From contig JAPPNM010000074.1 of assembly GCA_028873825.1 (NCBI GenBank), positions 1 to 42,681 on the forward strand: DNA of 42,681 bases, written 5' to 3'. Below the pieces are notes generated by a model. It did not search any database and had not been told where the DNA came from. It saw only the letters and a list, made by a program, of their open reading frames with translations. Numbering within the stretch: the stretch's first letter is position 1; the number at the start of each line of letters is the position of its first letter. Source of the stretch: Gemmatimonadota bacterium. Its GTDB lineage: Bacteria > Gemmatimonadota > Gemmatimonadetes > Longimicrobiales > Gaopeijiaceae. This document shows, one piece after another, positions 1 to 42,681 of the stretch. A program made the position numbers and the translations under genes.

Positions 1-51
1 GCAGTCCGTGGATAAAGCCGCCCGAGCACCGAGAGCGGCGAGGCGCCGGGC
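1..51 (+). repeat. Dispersed repeat, copy A
   Basis: Bases 14-51 are identical over 38 bp to the reverse complement of 42644-42681 at the other end of the window. A third, diverged copy lies at 40881-40943, and shares with this copy the flank reading GGATAA and the core GGCGAGGCGCCGGGC. It lies outside any gene, downstream of the minus-strand operon. The core can fold on itself (GGCGCC is palindromic), as REP-like intergenic repeats often do. The family is not one I can name. Confidence 0.75.
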
Positions 52-102
52 CGGGGGGATTTTGTCCACGGGCTGTTAGGGGCCTTCAATGGGGGCGTTC
101 GG

Positions 103-1089
103 TCATCCCGCCGATCCTCGAATCAGCACGATTCGGATCCTCTCGGCCTTCCGATCCGGCAGCTCGATCTCCTTCTCCTCTCCCTCGCGGGCTCCGAACA
201 GCGCGTGGCCGACGGGGGAGTCGCGCGAAACCTCCCCCCTGTCCCAGTCCGGCTCGCGACCGACCACCGTACGCGCGACGATCTCGCGGGTCTCGAAGTC
301 GTACACCCAGACCCTGTCTCCCACCTCCACCCTGCGCGCGGGCTTCGGATCCGGCGGATCGGCCGGCCACCTCATCGAGCCGAGCTGGCCGCGAACGAAG
401 CTCATCGCCCGGCGCCTGTCGGCCGGGACGCCCACGGCGTCCTCCATCTCCCGCAGAAAGCGGCGCGCAACTTCGCGCCCGGCCAGGGAGCGGCGCCACG
501 CTCCGCGAGCCTCGGCCGGAAAGCGCCTCTCCGCGTAGGTTCGCTCGGCTTCGCGGAACGCCTCCCCCGATTTGGCGGCGTGGAACGAAAGGTGGGTGTC
601 GAGGACCTCGGCGATGTCCTCGTTCACGTTGTCCGCGATGTCGAAGCGGGCGAACTGCCGGTTGCGGACGCTTCCCCGTCCCGCCGGGAAGTGGAATCTC
701 CAGCGGCGACCGTCCTCCGAAATCGCCAGCTGGACGGCCCGGATCGAGCAGTCGTCGAACGGGTGACCCCCCGGAGCCGGCGCCGATTCGGCCACCGCTC
801 CGATCTTGACGAGGATGCGCGGATCGCCGGGAGGATGGCACAGCGCGAAGTCGACGGCGCCGGCCGGGGTCTCGAAACCGGGCGCCACCGCGTCCGTGTC
901 CCCGACGTCCCATCCGAGGTGGCGCAGGAGGGGCAGGAGGACGCGGTCCACGACATCGCGCCCGGTCGCGAAGCCGCCCTGTTCGAATTCGCTCGCCAAG
1001 TCGCCGAGCCTTTCGGCGAGGGACTCGATGCGCGAGCGGCGGTCGAAGAGGGGCAGCCCGTCAACCGGGTCGTCCGCCCTCTCGCTCAC
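103..1089 (-). CDS. HsdR-N-like (degenerate PD-(D/E)XK) domain fused to a GreA/GreB C-terminal domain
   Basis: 328 aa. The GTG start at 1089 overlaps the stop of the upstream ATPase (GTGA), so the two are probably translationally coupled. Residues about 20-210 follow the HsdR-N-type restriction-nuclease fold: LLPLLRHLGWDV (51-62), VDFAL (79-83) with the usual Asp, then ILVK (92-95) where active members have IEVK. The acidic residue before the Lys is therefore Leu, and the nuclease is probably inactive. Residues about 252-328 align with the FKBP-like C-terminal domain of GreA/GreB, including the SPVGHALFG segment (family: SPIARGLIG). The Gre N-terminal coiled coil that reaches the RNA polymerase active site is absent. 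Known biology: the Gre C-domain binds the rim of the polymerase secondary channel. Inference: the protein tethers the partner ATPase/nuclease to polymerase or to DNA. Domain calls are from reading motifs only. Confidence 0.75.
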   Translation of the reverse strand: MSERADDPVDGLPLFDRRSRIESLAERLGDLASEFEQGGFATGRDVVDRVLLPLLRHLGWDVGDTDAVAPGFETPAGAVDFALCHPPGDPRILVKIGAVAESAPAPGGHPFDDCSIRAVQLAISEDGRRWRFHFPAGRGSVRNRQFARFDIADNVNEDIAEVLDTHLSFHAAKSGEAFREAERTYAERRFPAEARGAWRRSLAGREVARRFLREMEDAVGVPADRRRAMSFVRGQLGSMRWPADPPDPKPARRVEVGDRVWVYDFETREIVARTVVGREPDWDRGEVSRDSPVGHALFGAREGEEKEIELPDRKAERIRIVLIRGSAG

Positions 1090-3542
1090 CCCGCTCCCAG
1101 CGCGACGATCCTCGCCCCCCGGTCCTCCAGGTCCGCCGCCATGGCCGGATGGCAGGTGAACAGGAACACCTGGCGCTCCTCCGCCACCCGCTCCAGCAGC
1201 TCGAAGGCGCGGTCGCGGCGCGACGCGTCCCAGTTGACGAGCGCCTCGTCCATGAAGAGAGGCAGACGTTCCCCGCCGGCGTCGAGGTGGTCGATGATGG
1301 CGAGGCGGAGCGCCAGGTAGATCTGCTCCCTGGTGCCCTGTGAGAGGGGCTCGCCGACCTGCCGCCGCTCCGGGGCCGCCGGGCCGCGCAGGTAGAAGGA
1401 CTCGTCGCCCGGATCGCCGATCTCGATGCGGTCGTAGCGGCCCCGGGTGAGGTGGCGCAGGTGTCCCCCGGCCCGGAGCAGCAGGTCGGGCTGGTGTTCG
1501 TCGCGGAAGCGGCGGTCCGCGACCCGTACGAGGCGAGCGAGCACGAAGGCCCGGTCCCGGCGCTCCCGAGCATCGCGGATCAGCCGCTTGACCGCCGCGA
1601 CGCGGCCCTCGATGCGATCCGCCGTGTCGCCCTCCCGGAGGTGGCGGATCTCCGAGTCCAGCCGGCCGGCCTCGCCTTGCAGCTCCTCGGCCCGTCCGGT
1701 CAGCTCGTCGACCCGCGCGTCGGCCTCGTCCAACCGCCCGGAGAGCGAATCCCACCGCTCCCCGGTCTCCTCCGCCCCGCGGATCTCGCCCTCGATTTCG
1801 GCGAGATCGGAGTGCTGCCGCTCCAGCTCGGCCCGCAGCTGTTCCGCACGGTGCAGGTCGTCGAGGCGCCGCCGCGCCGCCGCCGCGCCCCGCCCGGCAT
1901 CCCCGTCCCCGAGGCCGAGCAGCCGCTCCTCGAAGGCGGCAAGACGGCCAGCCGCCAGGGTGGCGTCCAGCTCCCGCCCCTTGATTCGGCTGCGGTTCCG
2001 CAGGTCCGCCAGCAGCTCCACCATGCGCTCGATCGCGGTGACCAGGTCGTACCCGGGCGATTCCAGCAAGGGTGCCCGCACGGGGAGCCCGCGCAGACTC
2101 TGAACGGCCGCGCGCCTCGCGACCTCCTCGCTCTCCTCGAGCCCGCGCAGTTCGGTCCGCCTGCCCTTTTCCGCGGCCGCGAACGCCTTCCCGTAACGCT
2201 TGGCGTGGCGTACGGTGTCGAGCCACAGGACCAGCATGAACAACCCCAGGACGCCTACGCCGACGCCCACCAGAAACACCATCTCCGGGCTTACCTCGAC
2301 CGCGGGGGCGGGGCGCAGCAGACCCGGGAAGAAACGGCCCGCCACCGCCGCCGCGCCCCCGAGCGCGACGCCCGCCACCCCCGACCACAGCCGCCCCCGG
2401 CCCGAAGGGGCCGCCTGGCGGAGGCCGTCGAGCGCCTCTTCGCGCAGGCCCTCCTCGGCGATCTTGCGCTGTTCCCGCTTGATCTCGTAAACGCCGACCA
2501 TCTCGCGAAGGTCGCCGACCGGAATCGCCAGAAGCAGCTCCTGGTCCACCTCCTCCCAGGGCACCGAAAACAGGCGTTCCCGCAGCTCGCTCAGGCGTTC
2601 GTCGACCTCCTCCGGGCCCCCGCCCGCCCCCGCCGCCCCGCCGCTCAGCGCCTCCACCCGCCCGGCCGCGTTGCGCGCCGCCCGTCGCAGCTCCTCCAGT
2701 CGCGCCTCGGGGTCGGTGGGCAGCCCCTCCAGCTCCCCGGCCGCCCCGCCCCTGGCGCGCAGCTCTCCGATTCGCTCCAGCGTCCGCCGCACGGGAAGCA
2801 GCCGGTTCAGCCGGTCTTCCAGCACCCCGCGGCGCTCCCGCACCCCCTCCCGCTCCTCCCGGAGACTCCTCAGCTCGTCCTCCGCGGCGGCCTGCGCGGC
2901 CACCTTCTCCCTTAGGGTCCGGTCGCGCTCCAGCACCTCGCGCCGCCGCGCCCTCAGCTCCCGAAGCTCGCGCTGCAACGTTCGCGCACGGGGCCGCCCG
3001 CGCCGGTCGGGACGCCAGAGCCGCACGGCCTCGTCGTCGAACTCCGCCGCCACCGCCCGCGCGGGCCGCAGGTCGGGAGCGGCCATCGCCCCCACCAGCC
3101 GGTCCTGCACCAGCTCCCAGCTCTCGCGCTCCAGCCCGGCGAGCTCGGACAGGGTGAGAGCGTACACCTGCCGGAAGACGACGCGCGCCACATGGCCCGC
3201 GGCGGGCACCGGCCGGTTGCCGATGTTCTCCGTATGTCCCGCAACCGTCAGCGTGCAGCGGCCGGACGAGAGAAGGCGCCGACGTACCCGCTGAGTCGTG
3301 CCGTCGTCCAGCCGAAGGACCGCCCCTCCCTCCGGATCGCCCCCGGCCCACGGCGCGTAGGGGTGACGCGCCCGCGTCGCGGGGCGAAAACCGTAAAGTA
3401 AAGTTGACAAAAAGTCAAAAAAAGTTGACTTTCCGCTCTCGTTCGGCCCCATCACGACGACGATCGAGGGTAGCGGATCGTCCCCGGTCGAGAGTTCCGC
3501 CAGGCAACCGTAGCGGACGACGCGAACGGACTCGAACCTCAT
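1086..3542 (-). CDS. YhaN-like SbcC/Rad50-family ATPase
   Basis: 818 aa. The ATG at 3542 overlaps the stop of the metallophosphoesterase (ATGA). It has an N-terminal Walker A, GPNESGKST (32-40), a long Arg/Glu/Leu-rich coiled-coil middle, an ABC signature LSQGTREQ near 733, a Walker B LPLFMDEALVNWD near 760-772 and an H-loop FTCH near 795. This is the SMC/Rad50 head split by a coiled coil. Near the middle (about 395-460) lie two hydrophobic stretches, one reading MVFLVGVGVGVLGLFMLVLW, as in Bacillus YhaN, so the protein is probably membrane-anchored. The partner is the YhaO/SbcD-like gene upstream. Expected role: ATP-driven clamping of DNA ends for the nuclease partner. The segment just after Walker A uses very AT-rich codons unlike the rest of the gene. 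It could also be annotated as AAA family ATPase or DUF2813. Confidence 0.85.
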   Translation of the reverse strand: MRFESVRVVRYGCLAELSTGDDPLPSIVVVMGPNESGKSTFFDFLSTLLYGFRPATRARHPYAPWAGGDPEGGAVLRLDDGTTQRVRRRLLSSGRCTLTVAGHTENIGNRPVPAAGHVARVVFRQVYALTLSELAGLERESWELVQDRLVGAMAAPDLRPARAVAAEFDDEAVRLWRPDRRGRPRARTLQRELRELRARRREVLERDRTLREKVAAQAAAEDELRSLREEREGVRERRGVLEDRLNRLLPVRRTLERIGELRARGGAAGELEGLPTDPEARLEELRRAARNAAGRVEALSGGAAGAGGGPEEVDERLSELRERLFSVPWEEVDQELLLAIPVGDLREMVGVYEIKREQRKIAEEGLREEALDGLRQAAPSGRGRLWSGVAGVALGGAAAVAGRFFPGLLRPAPAVEVSPEMVFLVGVGVGVLGLFMLVLWLDTVRHAKRYGKAFAAAEKGRRTELRGLEESEEVARRAAVQSLRGLPVRAPLLESPGYDLVTAIERMVELLADLRNRSRIKGRELDATLAAGRLAAFEERLLGLGDGDAGRGAAAARRRLDDLHRAEQLRAELERQHSDLAEIEGEIRGAEETGERWDSLSGRLDEADARVDELTGRAEELQGEAGRLDSEIRHLREGDTADRIEGRVAAVKRLIRDARERRDRAFVLARLVRVADRRFRDEHQPDLLLRAGGHLRHLTRGRYDRIEIGDPGDESFYLRGPAAPERRQVGEPLSQGTREQIYLALRLAIIDHLDAGGERLPLFMDEALVNWDASRRDRAFELLERVAEERQVFLFTCHPAMAADLEDRGARIVALGAG

Positions 3543-4792
3543 TCGGCGGAGCCGTCCGCGGTGAGCATGCGGGTCAGGATCTCCTCCGGAGCGCCCTCCA
3601 GCAGACGCCGCAGGTAGTCGTCGGCGGAGCCGTCGCGCTCCGCGTCGAAGCCGGCGAGATCCGTCTCCGCAAGGCCGAGGCGCTCGTCCCCCTCCCGTAC
3701 CTCCCGGCACAGCCGCAGGGCGGCGCCCAGCGCATCGTGGCGGCCCGCATGGTCCTCGACCCGGGCGGGAGGATGCACGCCGGCCGTGCGGACTTCGCAA
3801 CCGAGGACGTCCAGCCGCTCGACAAGGTCGTCCGCGATCGCCTCCAGCTCCTCCGGTTCGCGCAGCTCGCGCCAGAGGGGCGAAGGCCCGGAGAGTTCGG
3901 CCACGATCATCCACTCGGTGTCCTTCTCGCCCGGGTCCGCCGAGCGCGCGCGCTCCCAGGCGGCCGCCACCGGACGCACGAGCGCCCCGAGCGTGCGCGC
4001 CTCCCCCAGCCCCCCCACCGCCAGCTTCTCCCAGCGCACCCGCGAGAACTCGCGGAACCGAACCGCGGGGTGGGCCGGATCGCCCAGATCCACGAGCAGC
4101 CCCCCCTTGGGACCGGTCTCGCCCGGAGTGCGTCCCTGGAGGTTGCCGCAGTAGTGCACCGGGGGATCGCCGGAGAGCTCCTGGCGCCGGTGGACATGCC
4201 CCAGCGCCCAGTAGTGGAAGCCGGCGGCGCGCAGCCGCCCGAGGTCGGAGGGGGCGTAGGGACGGTGGACCGCGCCCCCGCGGGCGGACGCGACCAGGGT
4301 GTGCAGGAGCGCCGCCTGGGGGAGGGGGGTGCCGGAGACCGGGCGAAGCCGCCGCGAAAGGTCGCTCGTGACGCGCCCGGTGGCGTGGCCGGCCGCGGTG
4401 ACGTACCCCGCCGCGGAGCCGTCCGGCCTCCGGATCGTGACCGCGACCGGTTCCTCGCCGGAGGCGACGGTGACGTTGCCGGGCAGGCCGAGGGCGCCCG
4501 CGCGAGGCCCGCTCCCCGGGTCGTGGTTGCCGGTGGCGTAGACGACCTGGATGCCCGCGGCGCCGAGCCGCTCGAGCTGGGCCAGCAGAAAGCGTTCGGT
4601 GGCGAACGACGGACGGGGCCCGTCGAAGAGGTCGCCGGCGATCAGCACCGCGTCGACCTTTCGGGCGACCGCGAGGTCCACGCACCGGGCGAGGGCGTCG
4701 CGCAAGGCCTGGCGCAGCCGGTTCCGCACGGCCTCCGAGCGGCCGCCGAAGGCGGTGTCGAGGTGAACGTCCGCGATGTGGATGAAACGCAT
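3539..4792 (-). CDS. YhaO/SbcD-like DNA repair metallophosphoesterase
   Basis: 417 aa. The start is the ATG at 4792 (MRFIHIADVHLD), the canonical opening of SbcD/Mre11 nucleases. Metal-ligand motifs are visible in order: D8 and H10 (ADVHLD), GDLFDG near 52, GNHD near 90, an HT pair (LLHTLV) near 170 and GHVH near 200. After about 250 the capping region is family-specific. Members cut DNA ends as a complex with an SbcC/Rad50-type ATPase, which here is the next gene, overlapping by ATGA. It is the first gene of the three-gene operon. The 140-bp divergent gap to the glutamate dehydrogenase gene must hold promoters for both directions; I see no clear consensus box. The length fits YhaO (about 410 aa). 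Confidence 0.85.
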   Translation of the reverse strand: MRFIHIADVHLDTAFGGRSEAVRNRLRQALRDALARCVDLAVARKVDAVLIAGDLFDGPRPSFATERFLLAQLERLGAAGIQVVYATGNHDPGSGPRAGALGLPGNVTVASGEEPVAVTIRRPDGSAAGYVTAAGHATGRVTSDLSRRLRPVSGTPLPQAALLHTLVASARGGAVHRPYAPSDLGRLRAAGFHYWALGHVHRRQELSGDPPVHYCGNLQGRTPGETGPKGGLLVDLGDPAHPAVRFREFSRVRWEKLAVGGLGEARTLGALVRPVAAAWERARSADPGEKDTEWMIVAELSGPSPLWRELREPEELEAIADDLVERLDVLGCEVRTAGVHPPARVEDHAGRHDALGAALRLCREVREGDERLGLAETDLAGFDAERDGSADDYLRRLLEGAPEEILTRMLTADGSAE

Positions 4793-4932
4793 CGGCCGAC
4801 TCCGGAGCTTTGGTGGGCGCCGACGGGTTGAAAGGTAACGTCTGGCGGCGGGGGCGGCGGCCGGATTACTGTTGGGCGCCGTTCGAATCTCCCTCGCTTC
4901 GCACCGCTTATCCAGAGCCACCGCGTGACGAA

Positions 4933-7900
4933 ATGACCGAGCCGGGTCCCGCCGCTCCAACCGCGGCCGATTCAACAGTCGTCGGCGAAGTGCTCCGGAC
5001 CCTGCGCCGCACGGCCGGGGACGACCGCTACCGCCTCCTGGAGAAGTTCGTCCCCTTCTTCCTGGGCAAGGCGACCGCGGAACTGCTCGAGGAACGGGCG
5101 CCCGAGGACCTGGGCCGGATGTGCGTCGACTCGCTCGACTTCCTGGACCGCAGCCGTCCGGACCGCGTCGACGTGGAGGTCGCCAATCCGGTCCGGGACG
5201 GGGGCCGCTGGTCGGCACCGGTCACGATCATCCGGACCAACGTCTCCGAACGGCCCTTCATCGTCGACACCATCCGGGAGTTCCTCTCCTCGCAGGACCT
5301 GCAGATCATGCACTTCGCGTACCCGCTCATGACCGTGGAACGGGACGACGAAGGCCGGATCGCCGATCTGCTGGCCCCCGGAGAGCGTACCCGCACCGAG
5401 TCGATGGTCTACGCGGAGGTGGCGCAGGTCGCCGACCCGGCCGTGCGCGAGTCGCTGCGGGCCGAGACGGCGCGGCGCCTGGAGGACGTGGTGAAGGCCA
5501 CCGACGACTTCGGCCTCATGGTCGACAAGATCGGCGACGTGGTTTCGGAGCTGGGCTTCCGCCTGCGCGACGTGCCCGGCCGCCGTGAAGAGTTCCGCGA
5601 AATCCAGGCGTTCCTGCGCTGGCTGCGCGACGGGGGCTTCGTCTTCCTCGGGTATCGCTCCTACACCTTCCGGCCGCTCGAACCGGGAGGAGAGGAAGCG
5701 GTCACCCTCGACCCCGGGTCGGGGCTGGGCGTGCTCCAGGAGGAGGAGTCGTCGGCCTACGCGCAACCGGTCCCCGTCAGCCAGCTCTCCGGCGGGATGC
5801 GCGAGAGGGCGCTTTCCGGCCCGGTGCTCATCATCAGCAAGACGAACGCCGAATCGACCGTCCACCGCCACGCGCGCATGGACTACATCGGCGTCAGGAA
5901 GATGCGGAAAGACGGCTCGATCGCCGGCGAGCACCGCTTCCTGGGGCTCTTCACCTCCAGGGCCTACTCCGAGCCCGCGCAGGACATCCCCATCCTGCGG
6001 CGGAAGCTGGCGGAGATCATCGAGCTGGCCGGCGCGTCCGAGGGGTCGCACGACTACAAGGAGATCATCACGATCTTCGGCTCCCTTCCCAAGGAGGAGC
6101 TCTTCCTAGCGACCGCCGGGGAGATCGCGAAGGACATCCGCGCCATCTCGAGCCGCTACAACACCTCGGAGGTGTTCGTAACGGTGCGGCGGGACCAGCT
6201 CGGACGCGGCGTGTCCATCATGGTCGTGCTGCCGCGCACGCGCTTCTCGGGCACCTTCCGCCGGGAGCTCGAGAGCGAGCTGGTCAATCGCTACGGGGCC
6301 GAGGTCCTGAACTATCACCTCGCGCTGGGCGAGGGACACCAGGCGCGCCTCCACTTCTATCTGGGCGGTCCGCCCGAGCGCCTCGACGAGATCGAGTGGC
6401 GGGAGCTCAGGGCCACGGTCACCAGCCTTACGCGGTCGTGGCTCGACGAGGTGCGGGACCTGCTGGCCGAGGAGCGTCCGCCCGACGTGGCGGGTCGCAT
6501 GGCCCGGCACTACGCGAGCGCCTTCGCGCCCGAATACAGGGCCGCCACCGATCCCGCGACGGCGGTGCGGGACATCGTGGAGCTAGAGGCCATGAAGGCC
6601 GAGGGGCGCATGGAGTCCGTCCTGTTCTTCGACGACTCGAAGACCGGCGGCGAATTCGACCTCAAGGTGTACATCCGCGAGCACCGGATCATCCTGTCGG
6701 ACTTCATGCCGGTGCTGGAGAACTGCGGCCTGCGGGTGATCGCCGTCTCGCTCTTCGAGCTGCGCGAGGGAGGCGGAGAAGCCGATTCCTCGATCTACGC
6801 CTTCGACGTGCAGACGTCGGCCGGGGACCGCGTCGACGTGGACGCGCTCGGCGGGGTGCTCTCGGAAGCGATCCTGGCCGTGCGAGCCGGCGACGCCACC
6901 AACGACTCCTTCAACCGGCTGGTGCGGCGCGCCGGGATGGCGTGGCGCGAGGTCGAGGTGTTGCGCGCATACGCGCACTACGCCTTCCAGATCGGGGCCG
7001 TGCCGAGCCGGCAGGTGCTGCGCTCCGCGCTGAAGGACCACCCGAGAATCGGGCTCCTCCTCTTTCGGCTCTTCGAGACCCGCTTCGATCCGGCGAGGGG
7101 AGACGGCACGCGCGGGCGGGAGGCGAAGGCAGCCGAGCTGAGGAGCGAGATCGGCGAGGAGCTGGCTGGGGTGAGCTCGCTCGCCTACGACAGGGCGCTG
7201 CGGGCCTTCCAGACCGTCATCGAGAGCACGGTCCGCACGAACTACTACCGCGGCGGCGCGCGCACGCCGACGGTCCGCTCGGGGGGCGTTCCGTACCTCT
7301 CCTTCAAGTTCGACTCCGAGCGGCTGCAGCCCGTGTCGAAGAGCCGGCTCATGTACGAGGTGTGGGTGCGGTCGTCGCGGATGGAGGGGATCCACCTGCG
7401 GGGCGCGGCGGTGGCGCGGGGCGGGATCCGCCACTCGGACAGGCCCGACGACTTCCGCGCCGAGGTGATGGGGCTGGTGCTCACCCAGATGGTCAAGAAC
7501 GCGGTGATAGTGCCGAGCGGGTCGAAGGGAGGGTTCGTCTGCCTGCGGCAGCTGCCCGGCCGCGAGGCAACGGCTCGCGAGGCCCGCGAGCAGTACTGCA
7601 CCCTGATGCGCGGCCTGCTCGACGTCACGGACAACCTGGACGGGGAGGATTCGGCGCCGGAGGGCGTCGTCCGCTACGACGGTTTCGACCCCTATCTGGT
7701 CGTGGCCGCCGACAAGGGAACCGCGCCCTTCTCGGACACCGCCAACGCGGTCGCCGCCGAGTACGGCTTCTGGCTCGACGACGCCTTCGCCTCCGGGGGC
7801 TCGAACGGGTACGACCACAAGGAAGTGGGGATCACCGCGAAGGGGGCGTGGGAATCGGTCAAGCGGCACTTCCGCGAGATGGGCAGGGACATCGGCGAGG

Positions 7901-9804
7901 AATCCTTCACGGTGGCGGGGATCGGCGACATGAGCGGCGACGTGTTCGGCAACGGCATGCTCCTGTCGCGCCGAACCCGGCTCGTGGCCGCCTTCGATCA
8001 CCGGCACGTCTTCATCGATCCCGACCCGGATCCGGAGACTTCGTTTCGGGAACGTGAACGGCTCTTCCGGCTGGGCCGCTCCTCATGGGACGACTACGAC
8101 CGGGGGAAGCTGTCGCCGGGCGGGATGATCGTGTCCCGCGGCGTCAAGTCGGTGGACCTCGCCGAGGAGGCCGCCGAGGCTCTCGGCCTGGGCCCCGAAA
8201 CGGCCACGCTGGACGGCGAGAGCCTCATCCGGGCCGTGCTCGCCGCACCGGTCGACCTCCTCTGGAACGGCGGGATCGGCACGTACGTGAAGGCGAACCG
8301 CGAGAGCCACGCCGACGCGGGCGACGCCTCGAACGACGCGGTGCGCATCGACGTCGGGGATCTCCGGGCGAAGGTGGTGGGCGAAGGCGGCAACCTCGGC
8401 TTCACCCGGGCGGCGCGGGTGGAGTACGCGCTCGGCGGCGGCCGTATAAACACCGACGCGCTCGACAACTCGGGCGGCGTGAACCTCTCCGACCGCGAGG
8501 TCAACCTCAAGATCCTCCTGAACGAGGCCCTGAACGCCGGCCTGGTTACGCGGGAGGAAAGGAACCGGCTGCTGGAGCGCCTCACCGACACCGTCGCCGC
8601 GCTGGTCGTGGCGGACAACGAGTCGGGCTGCCAGGCCGTCTCGCTGGACGAGTACCGCGCCCGCAGGGGCATGGACCACTACTGGACGCTCATGGGCGAC
8701 CTGATCCGGACCGGCCTCCTGGACCGCGACGCCGAGGGACTCCCGTCGTGGGACGAACTCACCGCCCGCAAGGAGGCGAACCAGTCGCTCACCCGGCCCG
8801 AACTGTCGGTCCTGCACTCCTACGCCAAGCTACACCTCAAGGCGGCGCTTCTGGCCTCGGGCCTGCCGGACGACCCCTCCGCCGAGGACTACTTCTTCGG
8901 CTACTTTCCGCACGAAGCGGTGGCGGCCGTCCCGCGGGAGATGGCCGTCGGCCACCGCCTGCGCCGCGAGATCGTGGCCTGCCAGCTCACCAACGACCTG
9001 GTCGACCTGATGGGTTCGGCGTTCATCGGCCGGCTGGTGCGCGAGACGGGAAGGAGCGCCGCGGAGATCGCGCGGGCCTGGCTCGTCGCCGCCAGGCTGA
9101 CCCGCCACGATTCGCTCCTGGAGAAGATCCGCTCGCAAGAGGGCACCGTGTCGGCCGCCGTCACCTACCGCTGGACGATGGGTCTTGCGCGCGTGCTCGA
9201 GCGCACCACCCGCTGGGTCCTCGCCAACTGCGACCCCGACGAGCCGACGAGCGCGCTCATCGAGGGGAGCCTGGACGGGCTGGAGTCGTTGCGCGAACGA
9301 TTCCACGACATCGTGGCGGGCCGGGACAGGGAGGATTTCCGGGACCGGGTGGCCGCGCTCATGCCGCAGGTGGGGGACGAGGGCTTCGTGCGCAACCTGG
9401 TGGCGCTGCGCTTTCTCGACCACCTGCTCGAGATCCTGCGCGTGGCCCGCGCCACCGGCACCGATCCGGTGAGCGCCGCCCGGATGTACTACTGGGTGAC
9501 CGAGGAGCTGCGCATTCCGTGGCTCGTGGATCGCATCGAGAGGTCGAGCGGCGAGGGGAAATGGCAGCAGCGCTGGGCGCTGGGACTCGTCAACGACCTG
9601 GGGGCGATCCGTCGCAATCTGACCGAGGGGGCGCTTGGCGGGGAGGGGCTGCTCGCAGGCGCGCTCGGTTTCGGGGGAGGGGACGAGGCGGGCCTTACGC
9701 GCTTTCACGCCATCCTCCAGGAGGTGGAGGCGGAGGAGCCGGTCAGTCTGGCCGGGTTGTCGGTGGCGATTCAGGAGATACGGCACCTGGCGTCGAAGCG
9801 GTGA
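4933..9804 (+). CDS. gdhB: NAD-dependent glutamate dehydrogenase, large (about 180 kDa) type
   Basis: 1623 aa from the ATG at 4933; an in-frame start at 4810 would add an atypical 41-residue leader. It oxidises glutamate to 2-oxoglutarate and ammonium with NAD+, a catabolic cytosolic enzyme. The N-terminal ~500 residues correspond to the ACT-like regulatory region of this family. Catalytic motifs: RGGIRHSDR near 830, QMVKNAVIVPSGSKGGF near 850-865 (catalytic Lys region), FSDTANAVA near 935, SNGYDHKE near 957 and the NAD-binding GIGDMSGDVFGNG near 995-1008. The C-terminal ~400 residues form the helical domain. Length and motif order are normal and the 4.9-kb frame is uninterrupted, which argues against a generally high indel error rate in this assembly. 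It is a single-gene unit, with a convergent gene starting 18 bp after its stop. Confidence 0.95.
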   Translation: MTEPGPAAPTAADSTVVGEVLRTLRRTAGDDRYRLLEKFVPFFLGKATAELLEERAPEDLGRMCVDSLDFLDRSRPDRVDVEVANPVRDGGRWSAPVTIIRTNVSERPFIVDTIREFLSSQDLQIMHFAYPLMTVERDDEGRIADLLAPGERTRTESMVYAEVAQVADPAVRESLRAETARRLEDVVKATDDFGLMVDKIGDVVSELGFRLRDVPGRREEFREIQAFLRWLRDGGFVFLGYRSYTFRPLEPGGEEAVTLDPGSGLGVLQEEESSAYAQPVPVSQLSGGMRERALSGPVLIISKTNAESTVHRHARMDYIGVRKMRKDGSIAGEHRFLGLFTSRAYSEPAQDIPILRRKLAEIIELAGASEGSHDYKEIITIFGSLPKEELFLATAGEIAKDIRAISSRYNTSEVFVTVRRDQLGRGVSIMVVLPRTRFSGTFRRELESELVNRYGAEVLNYHLALGEGHQARLHFYLGGPPERLDEIEWRELRATVTSLTRSWLDEVRDLLAEERPPDVAGRMARHYASAFAPEYRAATDPATAVRDIVELEAMKAEGRMESVLFFDDSKTGGEFDLKVYIREHRIILSDFMPVLENCGLRVIAVSLFELREGGGEADSSIYAFDVQTSAGDRVDVDALGGVLSEAILAVRAGDATNDSFNRLVRRAGMAWREVEVLRAYAHYAFQIGAVPSRQVLRSALKDHPRIGLLLFRLFETRFDPARGDGTRGREAKAAELRSEIGEELAGVSSLAYDRALRAFQTVIESTVRTNYYRGGARTPTVRSGGVPYLSFKFDSERLQPVSKSRLMYEVWVRSSRMEGIHLRGAAVARGGIRHSDRPDDFRAEVMGLVLTQMVKNAVIVPSGSKGGFVCLRQLPGREATAREAREQYCTLMRGLLDVTDNLDGEDSAPEGVVRYDGFDPYLVVAADKGTAPFSDTANAVAAEYGFWLDDAFASGGSNGYDHKEVGITAKGAWESVKRHFREMGRDIGEESFTVAGIGDMSGDVFGNGMLLSRRTRLVAAFDHRHVFIDPDPDPETSFRERERLFRLGRSSWDDYDRGKLSPGGMIVSRGVKSVDLAEEAAEALGLGPETATLDGESLIRAVLAAPVDLLWNGGIGTYVKANRESHADAGDASNDAVRIDVGDLRAKVVGEGGNLGFTRAARVEYALGGGRINTDALDNSGGVNLSDREVNLKILLNEALNAGLVTREERNRLLERLTDTVAALVVADNESGCQAVSLDEYRARRGMDHYWTLMGDLIRTGLLDRDAEGLPSWDELTARKEANQSLTRPELSVLHSYAKLHLKAALLASGLPDDPSAEDYFFGYFPHEAVAAVPREMAVGHRLRREIVACQLTNDLVDLMGSAFIGRLVRETGRSAAEIARAWLVAARLTRHDSLLEKIRSQEGTVSAAVTYRWTMGLARVLERTTRWVLANCDPDEPTSALIEGSLDGLESLRERFHDIVAGRDREDFRDRVAALMPQVGDEGFVRNLVALRFLDHLLEILRVARATGTDPVSAARMYYWVTEELRIPWLVDRIERSSGEGKWQQRWALGLVNDLGAIRRNLTEGALGGEGLLAGALGFGGGDEAGLTRFHAILQEVEAEEPVSLAGLSVAIQEIRHLASKR

Positions 9805-40500: not shown

Positions 40501-40880
40501 CCCGCGGATTGCGAATAATTATGAACAGTGCTTCTTTGCTAGGCTGAGACCGTTCTTCTGTATGACTGAAACATGTTCGAACTGCCTAGTTACATGTATT
40601 CGTCGTGATTATGGAACCCAGGGAGGATGGAATGGTGCATCGCCGGACAGGGGAGGTTGTGGACCGGCCGTCCCGTCATAGGACAGCTCGATTGCTCCTC
40701 AACATTGCACCATCCGGAATCCCGGTTGCGACGGGAAAGTCCCCGGAGTCCGGAGGGGAAAATCCCCCCCGAAGGATTGCGCAGGCACCAGCGAGGCGAT
40801 CCGGGCGCCCCACCGGTCCAGCCGTTTCTCCTGAAGTTCCTGATCGCCGTCCTCAACTGGCCGGCGAAGTCCCGCGACCT
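40501..40880. other. Spacer with no supported gene
   Basis: The part to about 40640 is AT-rich and probably upstream regulatory DNA. The remainder is GC-rich; long frames here lack any family resemblance and are composition artefacts. A small stem, GGGGAAAATCCCC, lies at about 40757-40769. Confidence 0.4.
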
Positions 40881-40943
40881 TCGTCGCGCCTTGCCCGCCC
40901 GGCGCCTCGCCACACTCGATGCTCGCGGGACCTTATCCACTGC
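40881..40943 (-). repeat. Dispersed repeat, copy C
   Basis: The reverse complement reads GCAGTGGATAAGG...GGCGAGGCGCCGGGCGGG, then CAAGGCGCGACGA. It matches copy A at 1-51 and copy B at 42628-42681 over most of its length, with scattered changes. It lies just beyond the stop of the SufU gene. Confidence 0.7.
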
Positions 40944-42565: not shown

Positions 42566-42627
42566 CCTTCGGCCGGAACGTCCCCCGCCCCCTCGAATTC
42601 GGTAGCCCCGCCGCTGCTATTCCCCCG

Positions 42628-42681
42628 TCGTCGCGCCTTGCCAGCCCGGCGCCTCGCCGCTCTCGGTGCTCGGGCGGCTTT
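42628..42681 (-). repeat. Dispersed repeat, copy B, at the window end
   Basis: Bases 42644-42681 are the exact reverse complement of 14-51. The upstream part (TCGTCGCGCCTTGCC) also matches copy C. The window ends inside the repeat. Confidence 0.75.

Follow-up and report, generated by a model that had tools for sequence, protein, structure and literature searches.

Introduction

Do a pair of DNA-end-processing genes and a gene that carries part of a transcription factor form one system when their start and stop codons overlap, or has an independent gene come to lie behind an ordinary pair? The question is raised by one end of a 42,681-nucleotide stretch of DNA from a Gemmatimonadota bacterium (the window), which is contig C43 of a 3.3-Mb genome assembly in 183 contigs. 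An earlier note on this DNA had read three genes there as a system that acts at DNA ends or stalled transcription, and had known of no account of the third gene in such operons. The analysis presented here corrects this attractive coupling of a DNA-end-repair pair to a transcription factor and moves the attention to a different object, the third gene (G3), which represents a small, conserved protein family that joins a restriction-nuclease fold with a lost active site to the RNA polymerase (RNAP)-docking domain of GreA.

Results

Layout of the locus

The features that matter for the argument are as follows (positions in the window).

1-83, minus strand: short copy of a dispersed palindromic (MITE-like) repeat, directly downstream of G3; the contig begins inside it
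103-1089, minus strand: G3, 328 aa with a GTG start, HsdR_N-related N-terminal domain and GreA/GreB C-terminal domain
121-342, minus strand: GreA/GreB C-terminal (FKBP-like) domain of G3 (PF01272, 43.8 bits in a whole-genome search)
1084-1089, minus strand: junction of yhaN and G3, where synteny with the relative G003 ends at the yhaN stop and G3 follows directly (blastn)
1086-3542, minus strand: yhaN-like gene for a Rad50/SbcC-type coiled-coil ATPase with a central membrane region, 818 aa (Pfam, motifs)
3539-4792, minus strand: yhaO/sbcD-like gene for a calcineurin-type metallophosphoesterase, 417 aa (Pfam, motifs, adjacency to yhaN)
4810-9804, plus strand: large divergent gene, NAD-glutamate-dehydrogenase-like, conserved neighbour of yhaO (open reading frame; adjacent in 10 of 10 genus loci)
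40878-40940 and 42612-42681: two further copies of the MITE-like repeat

The description of three minus-strand genes linked by ATGA and GTGA overlaps holds in full: read from the sequence, yhaO and yhaN overlap in ATGA at 3539-3542, and the stop codon of yhaN and the GTG start of G3 overlap in GTGA at 1086-1089. We take the gene at 4810-9804 to be NAD-glutamate-dehydrogenase-like.

yhaO and yhaN are an ordinary DNA-repair pair

The yhaO-like protein scores 49.4 bits against Pfam Metallophos (cut-off 21.5) and 69.7 bits against the NCBIfam sbcd model, below its cut-off of 77.65, and retains all of the motifs ADVHLD, GDLFDG, GNHD and LGHVH. Its partner matches Pfam AAA_27 with 54.4 bits (cut-off 22), with an intact Walker A (GPNESGKST), signature (LSQGTREQIY) and Walker B (LFMDEA), so that the proposed SbcD/SbcC-like (YhaO-YhaN) pair is borne out by Pfam matches above cut-off and by intact motifs. 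The two membrane segments that had been assigned to YhaN are only partly seen in the window protein, where one is clear (approximately residues 417-445) and the second stays below threshold, although two relatives (G001 and G017) show both of them clearly. As in YhaO-YhaN, SbcD-SbcC and Mre11-Rad50, a metallophosphoesterase and a coiled-coil ATPase are encoded by adjacent genes with intact motifs, and no notable difference from these systems was seen in the two window genes.

yhaN homologues were present in all 22 relatives of the genus that were searched, and the order glutamate dehydrogenase, yhaO, yhaN was constant in each of the ten loci inspected from this Gemmatimonadota genus. The pair is an ordinary SbcCD/Mre11-Rad50-type DNA-repair pair, which is held beside the glutamate dehydrogenase gene throughout the genus.

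G3 does not travel with the pair

If the three genes were a true system, G3 would be the RNAP adaptor of YhaON, which would process DNA ends where transcription complexes have stalled. The overlapping start and stop codons, which make the three genes a single reading unit here, speak for such a system, and the SbcCD-like and Gre domains are real. Against it, G3 does not recur beside yhaON, an outcome that the note itself had named as refuting: none of the ten yhaON loci of the genus has it in the 9-15 kb inspected around each, and the G3 loci that were read elsewhere, in seven further members of the genus and in a genome outside the family, have no yhaON nearby. In a relative assembled as a single contig (G021), about 590 kb separate G3 (754 kb) from yhaN (1345 kb). 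We consider the three-gene system, in the form in which it had been claimed, very unlikely.

The place at which the arrangement changes can be seen in G003, the closest relative (with 85% identity at the nucleotide level), in which synteny, by blastn against the locus L076, stops at window position 1084, and which has its own G3 on another contig. The constant yhaON loci without G3, together with this break, lead us to conclude that G3 lies behind yhaN in this lineage only. The operon-like arrangement is found in this one assembly, and G3 is a component of the pair in no other genome examined. Fusions of the Gre C-terminal domain with nuclease or other effector domains, of which the note showed no knowledge, are on record as predicted conflict proteins (PMC8195603). 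The seamless GTGA overlap makes co-translation of G3 with yhaN probable in this genome, and a functional link between the two may exist locally.

A contig end and a dispersed repeat

The position of G3 at a contig end leaves room for a wrong assembly join, in which case the junction with yhaN would be an artefact of metagenome assembly and the genes would not be adjacent in the organism. The contig starts inside a dispersed repeat, with G3 right at that end, the genome is fragmented into its 183 contigs, and synteny breaks exactly at the junction. However, the join is seamless, the repeat lies beyond G3 and not between yhaN and G3, and by inspection the 3' end of yhaN and the regions upstream of the G3 orthologues have no long stretch in common by which an assembler could be misled. 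Taking both sides together, we regard an artefact as improbable.

The repeat, with the ends CAGCCCGTGGACA and TGTCCACGGRCTG, occurs in about 172 copies in the genome (the reversed control pattern in 0), in 70-78 copies in two relatives and in 9-38 copies in four others, and many contigs of the assembly start or finish in it. A REP/RAYT origin was rejected, as the genome has no Y1 (RAYT-type) transposase. An integron cassette was likewise considered and rejected: although the ends of the repeat are attC-like, its copies are spread across many contigs and are not regular companions of other G3 copies.

The N-terminal domain of G3 is a nuclease fold with a lost active site

Residues 1-245 of G3 gave no match in sequence searches of Pfam, NCBIfam, PADLOC or the PDB, and the relationship of this region became apparent through relatives that lack a Gre domain, share the N-terminal domain over about 200 residues (28-35% identity) and end in DUF4268 or other regions. 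Among six of these (L041, L042, L043 and L141-L143), four exceed the HSDR_N cut-off of 25.1 bits (L041, 30.4; L043, 30.2; L141, 26.6; L143, 34.2) and two remain below it. A structure model of G3 (mean pLDDT 68, weakest at residues 170-245) has in its N-terminal half the order of strands and helices expected of a PD-(D/E)xK fold, and Foldseek gave weak matches of this half to the DrdV endonuclease domain (7lvv) and to SPARDA subunits. The HsdR-N-like N-terminus that had been proposed is consequently supported through relatives above the HSDR_N cut-off and a weak fold match to DrdV, and not by a direct Pfam match.

The Gre-less relatives carry the motif D-[FYLIV]-A-[LI]...E-x-K in eight of eight cases, followed by Q-x-x-x-Y in seven. 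QxxxY, a motif known from HsdR and RecB-like nucleases, is located immediately above the endonuclease site of EcoR124I (PMC4454674). In the G3 family, ExK and QxxxY are each found in 0 of 11 members: the aspartate D80 is kept, ExK has become xIG, xVG or similar, and QxxxY has become HPF[DEN]D. The residues that replace QxxxY (H109, F111 and D113) do not vary among the seven genus orthologues and L140, and even the 47%-identical member from another family keeps H109 and D113. In one member, L122, the region that would start with ExK is missing altogether. Compared with HsdR_N and other PD-(D/E)xK nucleases, G3 thus has the relationship in fold and sequence, by way of its relatives, and D80, but not the catalytic ExK. 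Motorless HSDR_N proteins, such as those that combine HSDR_N with DUF4268, are homologous to G3 over the same N-terminal 200 or so residues and differ in that D...ExK and, in most of them, QxxxY are retained and that DUF4268 or another domain forms the C-terminus, whereas G3 has neither motif and ends in Gre. Judged by these motifs, the N-terminal domain of G3 is a restriction-nuclease fold without its cutting residues.

Two members of the family are irregular. In L039 (8533-9831; the same protein as L122, 8001-8861), a G3 homologue has a central deletion from the former ExK strand on, with the remaining frame and the Gre domain open. At a contig start in G007 (C122, 148-979; L040), a homologue is split over two frames and appears to be frame-shifted.

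Orthologues of G3 in the genus are 66-73% identical with dN/dS values of 0.25-0.40, and the value against the distant member is 0.48; G3 is therefore no chance open reading frame. Within the genus, dN/dS is below 0.45 in each of the two domains. The broken frame in G007, the central deletion in G022 and the loss of the nuclease motifs could be taken to mean that G3 is a decaying remnant without function, but the reading frame is uninterrupted in the remaining genus members that were read, as well as in a distant family, and the dN/dS values (0.25-0.48 overall, below 0.45 in both domains of the genus orthologues) make decay the least probable of the explanations considered, and an extremely unlikely one. 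From purifying selection and the invariant H109 and D113 it follows that the domain, whether non-cutting or remodelled, is kept for some purpose.

A sliding-clamp-binding motif was also considered in this half of the protein but found no support. An N-terminal LPLF stretch is kept in nearly all members, but G, E or D stands where Q is usual, unlike in the tail of the DinB of the genus, which carries QLEF[FL] with the usual Q.

The C-terminal domain of G3 is that of GreA/GreB

The C-terminus had been named a GreA/GreB domain, and both sequence and fold agree: residues 250-323 match GreA_GreB with 40.5 bits (Pfam cut-off 26.9), and the C-terminal half of the predicted structure matches GreA, Gfh1, GreB and Rnk in Foldseek, with the best E value for GreA (8.6e-8) and about 3e-5 for Gfh1. 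The source genome encodes a separate ordinary GreA on contig C60, and the Gre domain of G3 is 44% identical to the C-terminal domain of that protein. The SPxG loop varies within the G3 family: three members have A or S in place of its proline.

G3 therefore has in common with GreA, GreB, Gfh1 and Rnk the FKBP-like C-terminal domain, while their N-terminal coiled coil, which reaches the active site, is replaced by the HsdR_N-related domain; no Gre model in Pfam or NCBIfam that would point to an antiparallel coiled coil with an acidic tip matched residues 1-245. In Gre factors, the globular domain contacts the beta-prime rim helices, and cleavage requires D41/E44 at the tip of the coiled coil (PMC7527559).

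Discussion

A proposed role for G3

The reading that we prefer, and to which we give about an even chance of being right as a whole, joins an ordinary yhaON pair with an independent G3 that has newly come to lie behind yhaN and acts by itself as an RNAP secondary-channel factor with a non-cutting nuclease fold. G3 would be a self-sufficient accessory gene of Gemmatimonadota, located at different sites in different genomes, which recently arrived directly behind yhaN and, through the GTGA overlap, would be carried on the yhaON transcript. The protein would work alone, most likely at the RNAP secondary channel, with its Gre C-terminal domain predicted to dock on the beta-prime rim helices in the manner of GreA, Gfh1 and Rnk. 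Because G3 has no coiled coil that reaches the active site, we would expect it to give no stimulation of transcript cleavage. Specific binding of RNAP by GreA is reported to need both of its domains (PMC7527559), and the lone C-terminal domain of G3 may therefore bind RNAP weakly. The nuclease-fold domain, presented at the mouth of the channel, would most likely bind nucleic acid or a partner, and G3 would then be expected to compete there with GreA-like factors, or to mark or hold particular elongation complexes. A part in the defence against invaders is plausible.

In its boldest form, this would make G3 a new RNAP accessory factor, whose Gre C-terminal domain parks a pseudo-nuclease, or a nuclease built on D80, H109 and D113, at the mouth of the secondary channel. 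In sponge-symbiont Gemmatimonadota it would serve to detect when invading DNA is transcribed, or to block this. We put this forward tentatively, as a possibility that is doubtful at present.

Precedent among predicted conflict proteins

Kaur et al. 2021 predicted a group of effector-TPR-GreA/B-C-PIN conflict proteins, in which the Gre C-terminal domain is combined with restriction-endonuclease and other effector domains (PMC8195603); these are mostly standalone genes, and are predicted to act on RNAP captured by viruses (PMC8195603). By analogy, they resemble G3 more than any other precedent that we found. Both have a Gre C-terminal domain outside Gre factors, joined to an N-terminal domain that in the conflict proteins varies and includes restriction-endonuclease-type DNases, and both occur as standalone effector-type fusions, mostly with few conserved neighbours (PMC8195603). 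G3 differs in that its nuclease-fold domain lacks the catalytic residues and in that its Gre domain is C-terminal, reaching residue 323 of 328. Pfam searches of the 328 aa matched neither TPR repeats nor a PIN domain, which is why we do not file G3 as a member of this group.

G3 might nevertheless be a defence effector of this type, with a Gre C-terminal domain that recognizes RNAP captured for foreign transcription and an N-terminal site that is remodelled around the invariant D80, H109 and D113, and not dead. The same domain is joined to restriction-endonuclease and other effectors in the predicted, mostly standalone conflict proteins (PMC8195603), the distribution of G3 is patchy, with changing neighbours that are partly defence- or mobile-element-like, and H109, F111 and D113 stand invariant in place of QxxxY in the seven genus orthologues and L140. 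In addition, the C-terminal part of L041, a sibling without Gre, gives a match to PADLOC PDC-S11 (PDC-S11 matches the DUF4268 part). The lack of TPR and PIN domains in G3 weighs against this explanation, as do the loss of ExK in 11 of 11 members, the absence in L122 of the whole region from ExK on, and a PADLOC search in which G3 itself had no match; among the neighbours and library matches, none directly linked G3 itself to defence. On balance, we rate the defence effector as possible but unlikely, and hold to the secondary-channel factor as the preferred reading. If G3 binds RNAP, it would offer a compact test case for the Gre C-terminal domains that are predicted to be recruiting modules in conflict proteins.

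Distribution and genomic neighbours of G3

Of the 22 genus relatives, 8 have a homologue of G3. Beyond the genus, a partial copy was found at the end of a contig in a further genus of the same family (G380), and a single homologue with 47% identity in another family of the class (G096). Profile-level surveys covered 298 and 394 genomes, two overlapping sets that are all Gemmatimonadota, and a scan of 84,980 species by short exact peptides reaches close relatives only, having missed the member in G096. The relatives are metagenome genomes of Gemmatimonadota, and isolate codes such as RHO and COS suggest marine sponge samples. Spread by viruses or plasmids is unsupported, with no relative found in viral contigs or in phage or plasmid records.

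The neighbours of G3 vary across the loci read, and include a DUF772 transposase-domain protein, a PemK/MazF-type toxin, an SLFN_AlbA_2 protein, a Sel1-repeat protein, a beta-propeller lipoprotein, and P450 and beta-lactamase-family genes. In G021, a fragment of a second Gre-domain copy (C1, 750164-750289) lies approximately 4 kb from the full G3. In G012 (L117, 8001-8966), G3 starts about 15 bases past the stop codon of a different, unrelated upstream gene, so that close packing is not unique to the window. Three genus members have, as the convergent neighbour of G3, a conserved protein of approximately 733 aa for which Pfam gave no convincing match, and a fourth has it close to G3 (L034, 5350-7902; L037, 2077-4278; L038, 2697-4898; L039, 9844-12045); judged by eye, it resembles GHKL-type ATPases.
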